Positions 2 to 5,023 of a stretch of 5,023 bases of DNA are shown piece by piece; positions within the stretch are counted from its first letter, which is position 1, and each line of letters opens with the position of its first letter. The DNA comes from Candidatus Sumerlaeota bacterium. Its GTDB lineage: Bacteria > CG03 > SLGR01. The notes beneath the pieces are model-generated. The model saw nothing but the letters and a program-made list of their open reading frames with translations. It made no database searches and was not told the DNA's origin. Location: positions 1 to 5,023 of the forward strand of contig SLGR01000256.1 in the NCBI GenBank assembly GCA_007136585.1, written 5' to 3'. A program made the translations under genes and the position numbers.

Positions 2-1837
2 GAAAGCCTGGATATAATTGAAAAAGATATTGAGAGGCTCTCGGAGGTCCCGGGTATAGGCGGAAAACGGATTGAGATGATAAAATCCGCCTGGGACGAG
101 CAGAAAAAGATAAGGGATCTCATAATATTCCTGCGCTCCCATGATATAAGCGCGGTTCACGCTTCAAAGATATTTAAAAAATACGGGAGCCAATCCTTGG
201 ATATTATAAGAAAAAACCCCTACCGTCTTGCCTCGGATATTACCGGGATAGGGTTTCTCACGGCCGACCGGATGGCTGAAAAACTCGGGGTCCCGCGGGG
301 TTCCCTCCTCAGGGCCGCTTCCGGGGTTCTTTATATCCTTGAAACCCTTTCGGAAGAGGGGCATCTCTACTTCCCTCTCCGGGAGTTTACCGCCAAAGCC
401 GTATCACTTCTGGGTGTGAGTGAGAAAATAATTGAGAAGGCGTTAGATGAGCTCAGTGCTGACGGCAGTATAGTAGTCTCAAGGGACCCGGGCCGGGAGA
501 GCGGGTCCGTATCTCTGGCCGGGTACTACCTCTGCGAGAAGAGCATAGCCTCGCGGCTCAGGGCTCTCTCCGGCCAGGGGGAGCTCTTCGGCGCCCCTGA
601 TATTGAGAGGGAGACAGACCGCATACAGGAAGAGATGCATATAGAGCTCTCTGACGGGCAGTTGGAGGCTCTCCGTCTGGCCGTATCAAATAAGGTCCTT
701 GTCGTAACCGGCGGACCGGGTACAGGAAAGACCACACTGATAAAGGCGCTGGTAGCTCTTTTCTCGGGAAAAAATGCCCCGGTGACACTCGCGGCTCCCA
801 CCGGCCGGGCGGCAAAGAAAATGAGCGAGGCCGCGGGGCGCGAGGCAAAGACCATCCACCGGCTTCTGGAGTACAGCTTTTCCGGGGGCGGGTTTCAGCG
901 GAACAGATCCAACCCCCTTCCGGGCGGTCTCCTTGTGATAGACGAGGTCTCAATGGTTGACGCACCCCTTATGAATCACCTGCTCAAGGCTCTCTCCCCG
1001 GGGATCACCCTTCTGCTTGTGGGAGACGCGGATCAGCTTCCGCCCGTGGGGCCCGGGAATATCCTCGGGGATATAATATCTTCGGGAGTAATCCCCGTGG
1101 TGGAGCTGAGAGAGATATTCCGGCAGGCGAAAGAAAGCCGTATCATTGTGAATGCCCACAGGATAAAAAACGGAAAAATGCCTCTCCTGCCGGATCCCGG
1201 AAGGGGACTCTCGGATTTTTACTTTATAGACAGGGATGAACCAGGTGAGGTAGAGCGTACGATAATCAGGCTTGTCAAGGAACGCATCCCGGCCCGCTTC
1301 GGATTTGAGAGTTTTGAGGATATACAGGTTATCGCCCCTATGCGTAAAGGCCCGGCGGGGGCTTACTCTCTTAATACGGCTCTCCGGGAGGCTCTCAACC
1401 CGTCTGGCGGCGTGAATCCCGGAGGGGTTTCGGGGTTCCGCGAGGGTGATAAGGTGATGCAGGTAAAAAACAATTACGAGAAAGAGGTCTTTAACGGCGA
1501 TGCGGGCCGGATAGCTGGTATTGACCGGGGGGAAGGAACTGTTACGGTAGATTACGGGGAGAGGCGTGTATCCTACGGGTCCGGGGAGATGGGCCAGCTG
1601 GTTCCCGCATACGCGATTACCGTGCATAAGGCCCAGGGTTCGGAGTATCCGGCGGTTGTGATGCCTGTGATTACCGGGCATTACGTGCTTCTACAACGCA
1701 ACCTGATCTATACGGCTGTCACCAGGGGGCGCACCCTGGTTGTTCTGGTCGGGTCCCGGAAGGCTCTGAGTATAGCGGTTCGAAATGAGAGCAGAAACAA
1801 GAGGTACACCCGCCTGGAAGGGCTTCTGAGGGGATAG
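2..1837 (+). CDS. recD2: RecD2-type SF1B 5'-3' DNA helicase (5' end outside window)
   Basis: This is an ATP-dependent DNA helicase of the RecD2/TraA branch, a cytoplasmic DNA repair enzyme that works without RecB and RecC. The frame is open from base 2, so the ATG at 77 is internal. The visible 611 residues lack roughly the first 110-190 of the usual 720-800. Residue numbers count from base 2. A helix-hairpin-helix (VPGIGGKRI, residues 16-24) and a second one (ITGIGFLTADR, from residue 80) precede the motor domains. The motor shows Walker A GGPGTGKT (237-244, Lys243), motif Ia APTGRAAKKM (about 265), Walker B VIDEVSM (Asp314, Glu315), motif III GDADQLPPVGPGN (from 341), the REIFRQ motif IV region, motif V YAITVHKAQGSEY (from 537) and motif VI NLIYTAVTRGR (567, arginine finger region 575-577). 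No motif is damaged. The HhH pair and lone context separate it from RecBCD RecD. The next gene has its own promoter. Confidence 0.96.
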   Translation, partial: ESLDIIEKDIERLSEVPGIGGKRIEMIKSAWDEQKKIRDLIIFLRSHDISAVHASKIFKKYGSQSLDIIRKNPYRLASDITGIGFLTADRMAEKLGVPRGSLLRAASGVLYILETLSEEGHLYFPLREFTAKAVSLLGVSEKIIEKALDELSADGSIVVSRDPGRESGSVSLAGYYLCEKSIASRLRALSGQGELFGAPDIERETDRIQEEMHIELSDGQLEALRLAVSNKVLVVTGGPGTGKTTLIKALVALFSGKNAPVTLAAPTGRAAKKMSEAAGREAKTIHRLLEYSFSGGGFQRNRSNPLPGGLLVIDEVSMVDAPLMNHLLKALSPGITLLLVGDADQLPPVGPGNILGDIISSGVIPVVELREIFRQAKESRIIVNAHRIKNGKMPLLPDPGRGLSDFYFIDRDEPGEVERTIIRLVKERIPARFGFESFEDIQVIAPMRKGPAGAYSLNTALREALNPSGGVNPGGVSGFREGDKVMQVKNNYEKEVFNGDAGRIAGIDRGEGTVTVDYGERRVSYGSGEMGQLVPAYAITVHKAQGSEYPAVVMPVITGHYVLLQRNLIYTAVTRGRTLVVLVGSRKALSIAVRNESRNKRYTRLEGLLRG

Positions 1838-2173: not shown

Positions 2174-3136
2174 ATGTTGAAAAAAATACTTAAACACGCG
2201 GTAACGGCGCAGTTATTTCTGCTTTCGGCGGCTGTGGCAGTTACGGCAGGAGAGATCGCTGTGATAATAAACGTTTCTGAAGACCGGGCTGCAGGTCCGC
2301 ATTCAGAGATGCTGGAGGGGTTCAGCAACAGACTTGCGGAAGAGGGTGTTGAATATAAAAAATCCGTTTTCAACCTTGCCGGGGATCTCTCCGGCGAAGA
2401 GATACTAAGCCGGATAAAGGGTTCTTCACCGGAAGCAGTGATCCCGTTGGGGTCTTCGGCTGCGGAGTTTGCCAGAGAAAACATAACCGGGCTGCCTGTG
2501 ATATTTTCAATGTTGAGTAATCCGGTAGGGCGCGGGCTGGTTGATAATATCTCCGGTACCGGGACAAATTTCACCGGTGTGACACTTGATATTCCTCCCG
2601 CCAAGCAGCTTGAGATGGTAATGGAGGCGATGCCGGGTATTGAAAAAGTAGGTGTTATTTATGACCCCGCAAACTCTGAGAAGGTTGTAAATGAAGCGGA
2701 AACCGAATTGAAAAAATCGGGACTGGTTCTGATTAGAAAAACTGTAACCGAGGCCAGGGAAATATCCGGTGCGCTTGACGCTATCCGGGATGAGGGAGCG
2801 GATATCTTATGGGCCATACCGGACGGGACCGTTTACTCCGGGGCCTCTGTAAGGCAGGTCCTGCTTTACAGCCTGAGAAACAATCTTCCCGTTGCCGGGT
2901 TCTCGGAGCACTTTGTCAGGGCCGGTGCAGTTATGGGCATATACCCGGATTACACCGGTATCGGCAGACAGACAGCAGATCTTGCTCTGAGAGTAATTGG
3001 GGGCGAGGATCCCGGAGAGATACCCATAGCCTTTCCGGAGAGCGTCTCAATGGCCTTTAATCAGCGGGTTATAGCCGCCATAGGGAAGAATGTAGAGCAG
3101 TCTTCGCTTCAGCAGGCGCGCGAGATATTCCAGTAG
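2174..3136 (+). CDS. ABC transporter substrate-binding protein, ABC_sub_bind family (PF04392)
   Basis: This is an exported solute-binding protein of 320 residues, a normal length for the family. Residues 1-25 form a signal peptide: basic start MLKKILKH, hydrophobic core, and probable cleavage after VTA (23-25). There is no lipobox cysteine, so it should be a free periplasmic protein. Two alternating alpha/beta lobes follow. Family hallmarks are PVIFSMLSNPVG (108-119), NFTGVTLDIPPAKQLEM (132-148), VGVIYDPANSE (159-169), and NLPVAGFSEHFVRAGAVMG (237-255) running into the GRQTADLALRVIGG segment (264-277). The ligand cannot be read from sequence; family members are linked to amino acids (TrpX-like) and many are unassigned. 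No permease or ATPase gene adjoins it; the downstream gene converges on it. It may serve a distant transporter or a sensor. The promoter, palindrome and ribosome binding site just upstream indicate independent, regulated expression. Confidence 0.9.
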   Translation: MLKKILKHAVTAQLFLLSAAVAVTAGEIAVIINVSEDRAAGPHSEMLEGFSNRLAEEGVEYKKSVFNLAGDLSGEEILSRIKGSSPEAVIPLGSSAAEFARENITGLPVIFSMLSNPVGRGLVDNISGTGTNFTGVTLDIPPAKQLEMVMEAMPGIEKVGVIYDPANSEKVVNEAETELKKSGLVLIRKTVTEAREISGALDAIRDEGADILWAIPDGTVYSGASVRQVLLYSLRNNLPVAGFSEHFVRAGAVMGIYPDYTGIGRQTADLALRVIGGEDPGEIPIAFPESVSMAFNQRVIAAIGKNVEQSSLQQAREIFQ

Positions 3137-3211: not shown

Positions 3212-3775
3212 TTAGTAAGATGACGGGGTAAAATAGGTTGAAGCGGAATTTTCTCCCACGTAATAGAACCTTTCGCTATCCGGGGGGCTGTAGTATATGC
3301 TGAGGTAATTCGCTCCCTCTCCTTTTGAATGGGTTATCTCCAGGGTCTGGGGTCCTTCCCGGAGGAGTATGCTGGCATGGCCTTTTATTTCTCTTCCGTG
3401 GTGATATATGACAGGGGTTCCGTTCAGGAATATCCTGGTTTCTGTTCCGGAGAAGTAATCGGAAGAAATTAAAAAATCATACCGTCCTTCCGCCGTATGC
3501 ATTATAGTTGTCATAGCGGCAAAGAAATTATCTCTTACGCCGAGCGGACCCATTCGGTAATGTTTAAATTCCCGCGAGATAGGAAATCTTGCGGTATCCA
3601 CACCTGTTGAGCTCCACTCAGAAAATCCTTCACCCGGGGATGAAAGGTTTTCAATGAAAAGCTTCAGGTCTATCCTGTGAGGAACCTCAGGCAGAGGGCG
3701 CATTACCCAGAGATGAAATAATGTTAACGCGATCCCGGCAGTAAGAAGAAAATAATCTCTACCTTTCAACTTCAT
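3212..3775 (-). CDS. Membrane-anchored extracytoplasmic protein with PA14-like domain
   Basis: This 187-residue protein has a short basic start (MKLKGRD), one hydrophobic segment at about 8-25 and then a wholly soluble remainder, which suggests a signal anchor with the rest in the periplasm. Residues 97-165 resemble the PA14 beta-sandwich: EGRYDFLISSDYFSG, then RIFLNGTPVIYHHG, then HASILLREGPQTLEI, and last YLSIYYSPP. This follows the PA14 order of a glycine-led strand, SD turn, ligand-loop NG, 'I.L..G.H.I' strand and closing strand. PA14 domains often bind carbohydrate; binding here is inferred. The start is firm because an in-frame TGA lies two codons upstream (3779-3781). It overlaps the end of the PMT-like gene by 17 bases and has only a weak GGGA Shine-Dalgarno, which points to translational coupling. 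No named family is recognised for the whole protein. Confidence 0.75.
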   Translation of the reverse strand: MKLKGRDYFLLTAGIALTLFHLWVMRPLPEVPHRIDLKLFIENLSSPGEGFSEWSSTGVDTARFPISREFKHYRMGPLGVRDNFFAAMTTIMHTAEGRYDFLISSDYFSGTETRIFLNGTPVIYHHGREIKGHASILLREGPQTLEITHSKGEGANYLSIYYSPPDSERFYYVGENSASTYFTPSSY

Positions 3776-5023
3776 ATGTCAAATCCCAGCTTCTAAACCA
3801 GTCACGCCTTACAAATTCCCTGTATGTTATCTCCCGGTAATAAGAGATAGGGCTGAAAAAAAGATATACGGCAAAGAAATTGAAGAAAAAGAGTATTACC
3901 GATATATGTACTATCAGGTTTTTCTCCTTAACTTTTTTTCCAAAAAAATGAAAAAATATAAGGTAGGCAAGAAGAAAAGAAAAGATTAGAGGAATATGAT
4001 AATAGGTAATATAAACCGCCCTGTCCATTGAGATGAAAAACCACATGTATACGGTATAGAGAAATACATAGACTCTGATAAAAAAGAGGGTTCCGTTGCT
4101 TTCTATATCAGGGGTCCTGTCCCAGAGATAATGGGAAATAAAAATCGCAAAGGAAATGAAGAGAACGGCAAGTGAAATCAGCCATATAGCCGGATTCCCA
4201 TGGAAGATCACGAATTTTCCGGAATCCGGGGAGGAGTTTACGGCATAAACTATACTTTTATACCCGAAAGGCCATTTAAAGGGAGAAGTTGAATACTCAT
4301 CCTCTTCGGGCATTATAAGTGACATTCGCCTGAGTTCGGTTATGTTCAGGCTGTGGTTTGCGGCAAAATACTCAGCCATTCGATAATCCGGGTCAGGGCC
4401 TCTCAGGGCGGCCATTAAATGGTAGCTGTTGACCATAAAGGAAAAAGCAATGAAAATACTTAGGGAAGCGATAGCGAACCCGGTTCCTTTAATTGGTTTT
4501 TTCCAGGATTTTTCGGTATTGAAATGAACCAGCGCAGCTGCAATTATAAGCAGGATCAGTAATGCTCCGCTGCTTCGTATAAGCATCGTAACCCCCACGG
4601 CAGCCCCCAGCAGGAGATAGCTGTATATTGAGAATGACCTTTTTTTTATCATCCTGGTAAATACCAGCAGGCAGATAAGCATGAAAAAATACTCCATTGG
4701 AGGGAAGTTTGCGGTTCGGGTATGTACTATAATTGAATTTTCAAAAAGGTAAAAACCGGAAAACAGCCCTGCCAGATGGACATTTTTGACGGTGTTATAA
4801 AGTAGAAGAAAGAAAAGAAGCGGAGAGAGGGATCCCAGCAGAACCGGGAAAAACCGGACACCTTTAAAAGAAAATCCTTCCGGAAACTCCCGTATAACAG
4901 AAATCCGCCCGAGCCCGGAAGTGTCAACATCGGCGTTTGGGTTAAGTATAGTTTCCCCCAGGGCAATCAGACCTATGCCCAGCGGGGGATGAAACTCAGG
5001 GTAAGGATTGTTGTTTATGTACC
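3759..5023 (-). CDS. PMT/GT39-like protein O-mannosyltransferase, GT-C membrane glycosyltransferase (5' end outside window)
   Basis: This polytopic membrane enzyme should move a sugar from a polyprenyl-phosphate carrier to a protein or other acceptor on the outer face of the inner membrane. The frame is open to the right edge (420 residues visible), so the ATG at 4697 is internal. Numbering from the edge: YPEFHPPLGIGLIALGE (7-23) matches the PMT loop motif HPPLGK.L; RFFPVLLGSLSPLLFFLLL (56-74) and ENSIIVHTR (94-102) match the following helices, with Arg102 in the family's conserved 'N...Q.R' position. WPFGYKSIVY (from 250) and HGNPAIW (274-280) match the bacterial PMT C-terminal signature, as do DRAVYITYYHIPLIFSFLL (333-351) and the ending DWFRSW. 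The catalytic acidic pair of the first loop lies outside the window. The donor is probably a polyprenyl-phosphate sugar, not necessarily mannose. A/T-richness partly reflects Phe/Ile/Lys codons. Confidence 0.88.
   Translation of the reverse strand, partial: YINNNPYPEFHPPLGIGLIALGETILNPNADVDTSGLGRISVIREFPEGFSFKGVRFFPVLLGSLSPLLFFLLLYNTVKNVHLAGLFSGFYLFENSIIVHTRTANFPPMEYFFMLICLLVFTRMIKKRSFSIYSYLLLGAAVGVTMLIRSSGALLILLIIAAALVHFNTEKSWKKPIKGTGFAIASLSIFIAFSFMVNSYHLMAALRGPDPDYRMAEYFAANHSLNITELRRMSLIMPEEDEYSTSPFKWPFGYKSIVYAVNSSPDSGKFVIFHGNPAIWLISLAVLFISFAIFISHYLWDRTPDIESNGTLFFIRVYVFLYTVYMWFFISMDRAVYITYYHIPLIFSFLLAYLIFFHFFGKKVKEKNLIVHISVILFFFNFFAVYLFFSPISYYREITYREFVRRDWFRSWDLTYEVER

Follow-up and report, generated by a model that had tools for sequence, protein, structure and literature searches.

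A bacterial protein O-mannosyltransferase gene conserved next to a gene for a membrane-tethered PA14 protein, a putative accessory subunit

In the window (i.e. the whole stretch of DNA that was analysed, a complete contig of 5023 bp from a draft genome of 1.88 Mb), a gene for a bacterial protein O-mannosyltransferase (PMT) overlaps a small gene for a membrane-anchored protein with a predicted PA14 fold. The same pair of genes is kept across distant bacterial lineages. Judging from sequence comparison and structure prediction, the two genes probably encode one glycosylation unit facing the periplasm, made up of the bacterial PMT and a membrane-tethered, lectin-like PA14 accessory subunit.

The PMT gene and its PA14 partner

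The features of the window that are used below are the following.

3759..5023, minus strand: PMT gene (bacterial protein O-mannosyltransferase, GT39, GT-C fold), assigned with Pfam; the C-terminus is complete and the 5' end lies beyond the contig edge
4701..4703, minus strand: codon for PMT Pro107 at the EL2 acidic column (equivalent to D176 of MtPMT), located in the PMT alignment
3759..3775, minus strand: overlap of 17 nt between the PMT stop and the partner start, from the coordinates
3212..3775, minus strand: partner gene (187 aa, ATG start) for an N-terminal TM helix and a periplasmic PA14 beta-sandwich, from the AF2 model, structural matches and the family profile
3701..3763, minus strand: predicted transmembrane helix, partner residues 5-25, from AF2 secondary structure and hydropathy
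3215..3685, minus strand: PA14 domain, partner residues 31-187, from VIA-align ranges
3440..3463, minus strand: degenerate SDDG (DcisD) site, where SSDYFSGTETR replaces SDDGFRL, a change found in the window only

The first-pass annotation of this DNA had described a GT39-like gene overlapping a small gene, which agrees with our results. The open reading frame at 3759-5021(-) matched both Pfam PMT (E 9.9e-15) and PMT_4TMC (E 1.6e-18) above the cut-off, and is hence a genuine PMT. Its identity with complete PMTs of the same clade is 26-33%. Alignment to full-length relatives indicates that about 50 N-terminal residues are missing, including the catalytic DE motif. This acidic motif in EL1 lies beyond the contig edge in the window; all clade relatives with sequence across EL1 have it. 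The R-x2-[YF] motif of EL5 is intact (R334, Y337). The overlap of 17 nt with the partner gene is consistent with translational coupling.

Two other genes share the window. An ABC_sub_bind substrate-binding protein (2174-3136, plus strand; Pfam E 1.3e-35, below the NCBIfam TrpX cut-off) is convergent with the PMT-PA14 pair and appears ordinary. A helicase ORF open at its 5' end (2-1837, plus strand) has the Walker A motif GGPGTGKTT and is RecD2-like by eye.

The small protein had been described as single-pass anchored with an outer part resembling PA14, and the structure prediction of 3212-3775 that had been proposed as a check indeed gave a PA14 fold. The AF2 model (mean pLDDT 86.2) has a helix at residues 5-25 followed by an all-beta domain; the model of a Gilvimarinus relative reached a mean pLDDT of 95. 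Among solved structures, the PA14 domain of RsgI3 (6qe7) matched the partner model best, with a VIA Z of 16.0 over 138 residues, followed by MpPA14 (5j6y; Z 14.8) and Cea1 (Z 14.5), while Epa and Flo lectins matched at Z 12-13.5. The Gilvimarinus model matched 6m8m at Z 16.3. The short basic N-terminus suggests an N-in, C-out topology for the partner.

Direct homologue searches with the window partner returned no match in 98 related genomes, genome_contigs, viral_contigs, plasmids, PDB, Pfam, NCBIfam or PHROGs, because its sequence is too diverged; the route via relatives of the PMT did succeed. The window partner alone did not reach the Pfam PF07691 (PA14) cut-off, and four relatives obtained through their PMTs (L025, L027, L040 and L069) were all above it. 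A profile of these four relatives, from which the window sequence was left out, found the window partner at E 5e-10 among 4350 frames, while the next unrelated frame came at E 0.87. Furthermore, hhalign gave 96.5% for the window partner against its relatives. The match is thus beyond chance, and we confirm that the small protein of the window is a PA14 protein.

Conservation of the pair and modules of sister PMTs

The first relatives of the PMT that proved to be followed by the same gene came from a Spirochaetales member (L025), a delta-type bacterium (L027) and two Gilvimarinus (L040 and L069). A later survey used the profile of the small gene alone, independently of the PMT. This profile recovered three new full-length small genes in 244 genomes of the Gilvimarinus order, four in 296 genomes of Spirochaetota and three in 45 genomes of the phylum of L027. 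All ten were located directly downstream of a PMT. Of the two outcomes that the first-pass annotation had named as refutations (no PA14-like fold, or small genes regularly lacking a GT-C neighbour), neither was thus obtained. The adjacent pair, for which a conservation search had been suggested, is therefore kept across distant lineages.

In all 15 pairs now available, the PA14 gene lies directly downstream of the PMT gene on the same strand, at a distance of -37 to +58 nt. Ten of these pairs overlap and the remaining five are 0-58 nt apart. The distance matrices of the PMTs and their partners were correlated (r 0.66), a value that none of 5000 permutations equalled.

Co-occurrence was followed in the 540 genomes of Spirochaetota and the Gilvimarinus order together. 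None of them contained a full-length small gene without a PMT, whereas 9 of the 12 clade PMTs had the small gene. In the Gilvimarinus order, small gene and clade PMT each occurred in four of the 244 genomes, the same four in both cases. In Spirochaetota, the clade PMT was present in eight genomes and the small gene in five, all five shared and adjacent (Fisher 3e-9, uncorrected for shared ancestry). The proposal of the first-pass annotation that the small protein is an obligate partner hence stands for the small gene, which was never seen without the PMT, but not for the enzyme, since three of the eight clade PMTs of Spirochaetota lack the small gene. The dependence is one-way only.

In the PMT tree, the five rows with PA14 fall in one clade of 12 rows (99/99), intermixed with seven rows without PA14, and the window PMT has a long branch. 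A single origin of the PA14 partner is not apparent from this tree.

Natural fusions of the two genes had also been proposed as a line of inquiry. Among the profile matches and the C-terminal extensions of PMTs we found no PMT-PA14 fusion; the natural fusions carry NPCBM instead. An NPCBM domain fused at the C-terminus scored above the cut-off in three sister PMTs (L051, L052 and L066) and weakly in a fourth (L062). In L037, a TM-NPCBM gene adjoins the PMT, while PMTs of Peribacteria and Peregrinibacteria have neither a PA14 nor an NPCBM module. MtPMT reportedly ends in the periplasm (PMC12331936), so that a fused NPCBM and a tethered PA14 domain would share a compartment with the active site.

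PA14 matches in longer frames were considered as PMT fusions and rejected, as they belong to adhesin-like, sulfatase-like or other TM proteins. Genome G949 encodes LtaS-like membrane proteins of the sulfatase/phosphoglycerol-transferase type (classified by eye) with a C-terminal PA14 domain (L130 1474-3261 and L132 1465-3279, both on the minus strand), which is another envelope enzyme bearing a PA14 module. Three further proteins (L129 1426-2394, L131 532-1473 and L133 1426-2553, all on the minus strand) combine PA14 with a single TM and a helical region in the cytosol, a layout that the TM-NPCBM protein of L037 shares. In L131, the gene is transcribed divergently from a further GT-C-like gene and adjoins a GT2-like gene.

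The atypical copy in the window

The SDDG motif is kept in 14 of 14 relatives of the partner, where its alignment position corresponds to the DcisD Ca2+/sugar site in MpPA14. In the window partner, the second Asp of this motif is lost. The Gln-Gly of L11 in MpPA14 and the family motif YFQG are off by one or two positions in the alignment, and we claim no correspondence between them. Overall, the window partner deviates at 7 of 11 family-invariant positions, compared with at most four in the other relatives.

The PMT of the window is similarly unusual. It deviates at 16 of 48 positions that are invariant in 14 relatives, where no other sequence deviates at more than four, and the Lys of HPPLGK is lost. 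At the EL2 acidic column, the window has Pro107 where all other rows of the alignment have Asp or Glu; a Glu occurs three residues further on. In MtPMT, D176A and D176N abolish activity (PMC12331936). The Pro107 substitution would bear on activity, and assignment to the PMT family is based on the Pfam domains. With these PMT residues and the Asp-Asp motif changed, the window copy is an outlier of its family that may be altered, repurposed or failing; the pair may lack Ca2+/sugar binding, or may be inactive.

We regard it as a real possibility, although not the favoured one, that the window pair is decaying or has been repurposed, in which case the function of the family should not be deduced from it. 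In addition to the substitutions above, the pair has a GC content of 42-46%, against 51-55% in its neighbours. On the other hand, both frames are intact over some 600 codons with their overlap retained, the prediction of a PA14 fold remains confident, and R-x2-Y is preserved. Decay of this copy would be compatible with an accessory subunit in the family as a whole, and the function of the family is better probed on intact pairs (e.g. those of Gilvimarinus) than on the copy in the window.

Proposed function, alternatives and significance

According to the accessory-subunit reading, the PMT would act as a lipid-phosphate-sugar:protein glycosyltransferase, with the PA14 domain positioned over its periplasmic active site. 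The PA14 domain might bind a sugar already present on the acceptor, or the sugar head group of the donor. It could thereby help the PMT to hold or re-engage its substrate, leading to processive or site-directed modification, presumably of Ser/Thr-rich secreted proteins. Its task would resemble that proposed for MIR in eukaryotic PMTs, but on a separate chain. For MIR, the literature describes a part in both dimerisation and processive displacement (PMC7759382, cited in PMC12331936). B4GALNT3 depends for its activity on a PA14 domain fused to it (PMC11254600), which offers a precedent, by analogy, for this kind of role in an unrelated enzyme.

The genes next to several pairs bear on donor and acceptor. 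In L025, the gene order is GtrA (on the opposite strand), PMT, PA14 and GT2, with overlapping PA14 and GT2 frames, while in L116 and L117 a GtrA gene follows the PA14 gene. These neighbours are compatible with a polyprenyl-phosphate-sugar donor. We searched for proteins with at least 16 Ser/Thr in 25 residues, and found them in 11 of 304 ORFs near PMT loci versus 0 of 250 control ORFs (p 0.001); since the threshold was picked after the first examples and the controls came from four of the same genomes, this enrichment is only suggestive of candidate acceptors.

Candidate acceptors were also seen at individual loci. In L005, two Ser-rich secreted DUF5666 proteins (3730-4536 and 4548-5324, plus strand) are encoded directly upstream of a PMT with a C-terminal NPCBM-like domain. 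In Gilvimarinus, two FG-GAP lipoprotein-like genes (L069 7049-11179 and L040 3049-7155), one with a long Ser tract, follow closely on the PMT-PA14 pair in a conserved position.

The GtrA and GT2 (GtrB/DPMS-like) genes adjoining the pair in L025, L116 and L117 would also suit a GT-C enzyme acting on a glycan of the cell surface (LPS, capsule or exopolysaccharide), as GtrABC systems do, with the PA14 protein binding the polysaccharide acceptor; carbohydrate binding is common among PA14 domains. Yet the enzyme belongs to the PMT family and has PMT_4TMC, the characterised members of this family act on proteins (PMC12331936), and secreted proteins with Ser/Thr tracts are encoded near several loci. 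We therefore consider modification of a surface glycan unlikely.

It is more improbable still that the small gene is a mere operon neighbour that shares a promoter with the PMT and encodes a periplasmic lectin or envelope protein acting on its own. Clade PMTs without the small gene would fit such an arrangement, but the adjacency in 10 of 10 blindly found copies, the matching co-occurrence in two surveyed groups, the overlapping frames in Spirochaetota and Gammaproteobacteria, which are far apart, and the replacement of the module by a fused NPCBM in sister PMTs all argue against it. Finally, a PA14 protein that is a dedicated substrate of the PMT (a small glycosylated surface lectin) instead of a subunit would also be expected from a neighbouring gene, but this is very improbable given that neither a Ser/Thr-rich stretch nor a proline-rich linker is conserved in the alignment and that the analogous module is fused to the enzyme in sister PMTs.

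PMTs and PA14 domains are each well known. The proposed unit of PMT and PA14 subunit shares features with several known systems. Eukaryotic PMTs (Pmt1/Pmt2/Pmt4, POMT1/2) belong to the same catalytic family and have a soluble beta-fold lumenal module near the active site, but their MIR is a beta-trefoil in loop 4 of the same chain, whereas here a PA14 sandwich is carried by a separate single-pass protein. PA14 lectins (MpPA14 of MpAFP, RsgI3, Flo/Epa adhesins) share the fold (Z 12-16) and, with relatives of the window partner, the Asp-Asp Ca2+ site; they are adhesin or sensor domains, whereas the partner here is a tethered protein in its own right, linked to the gene of a glycosyltransferase. 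GtrA-GtrB-GtrC polyprenyl-phosphate-sugar systems resemble those PMT-PA14 pairs that have GtrA and GT2 genes beside them, but the GT-C enzyme here is a PMT. We know of no PA14 component in Gtr systems. The actinobacterial PMT (MtPMT, Rv1002c type) is likewise bacterial, without MIR, and has R-x2-Y and a periplasmic C-terminus (PMC12331936); no lectin-like partner has been described for it, and a WW-like hairpin in EL4 is reported instead. In B4GALNT3/4, a PA14 module serves a glycosyltransferase and is needed for its activity (PMC11254600), but this is an unrelated Golgi enzyme of another GT family with a fused module. The first-pass annotation did not recognise the pairing as a described system, and we too found no description of PA14 or NPCBM with PMT or GT39 in the open-access literature.

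We propose tentatively, at slightly less than even confidence, that several bacterial PMT lineages gained exchangeable periplasmic carbohydrate-binding modules, either as a tethered PA14 or NPCBM subunit or as a C-terminal fusion, which answer the missing MIR, and that the version with PA14 is a protein O-glycosyltransferase of two subunits not described so far. A module encoded by its own gene lends itself to deletion, exchange or separate purification, which is less simple with MIR. Named Gilvimarinus strains with intact pairs make the question directly testable. How bacteria compensate for the absence of MIR was left as an open question in a 2025 structure-function paper on the PMT of Mycobacterium tuberculosis (PMC12331936). 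The conserved, separate lectin-fold partner, with NPCBM as an alternative, provides a concrete candidate answer.
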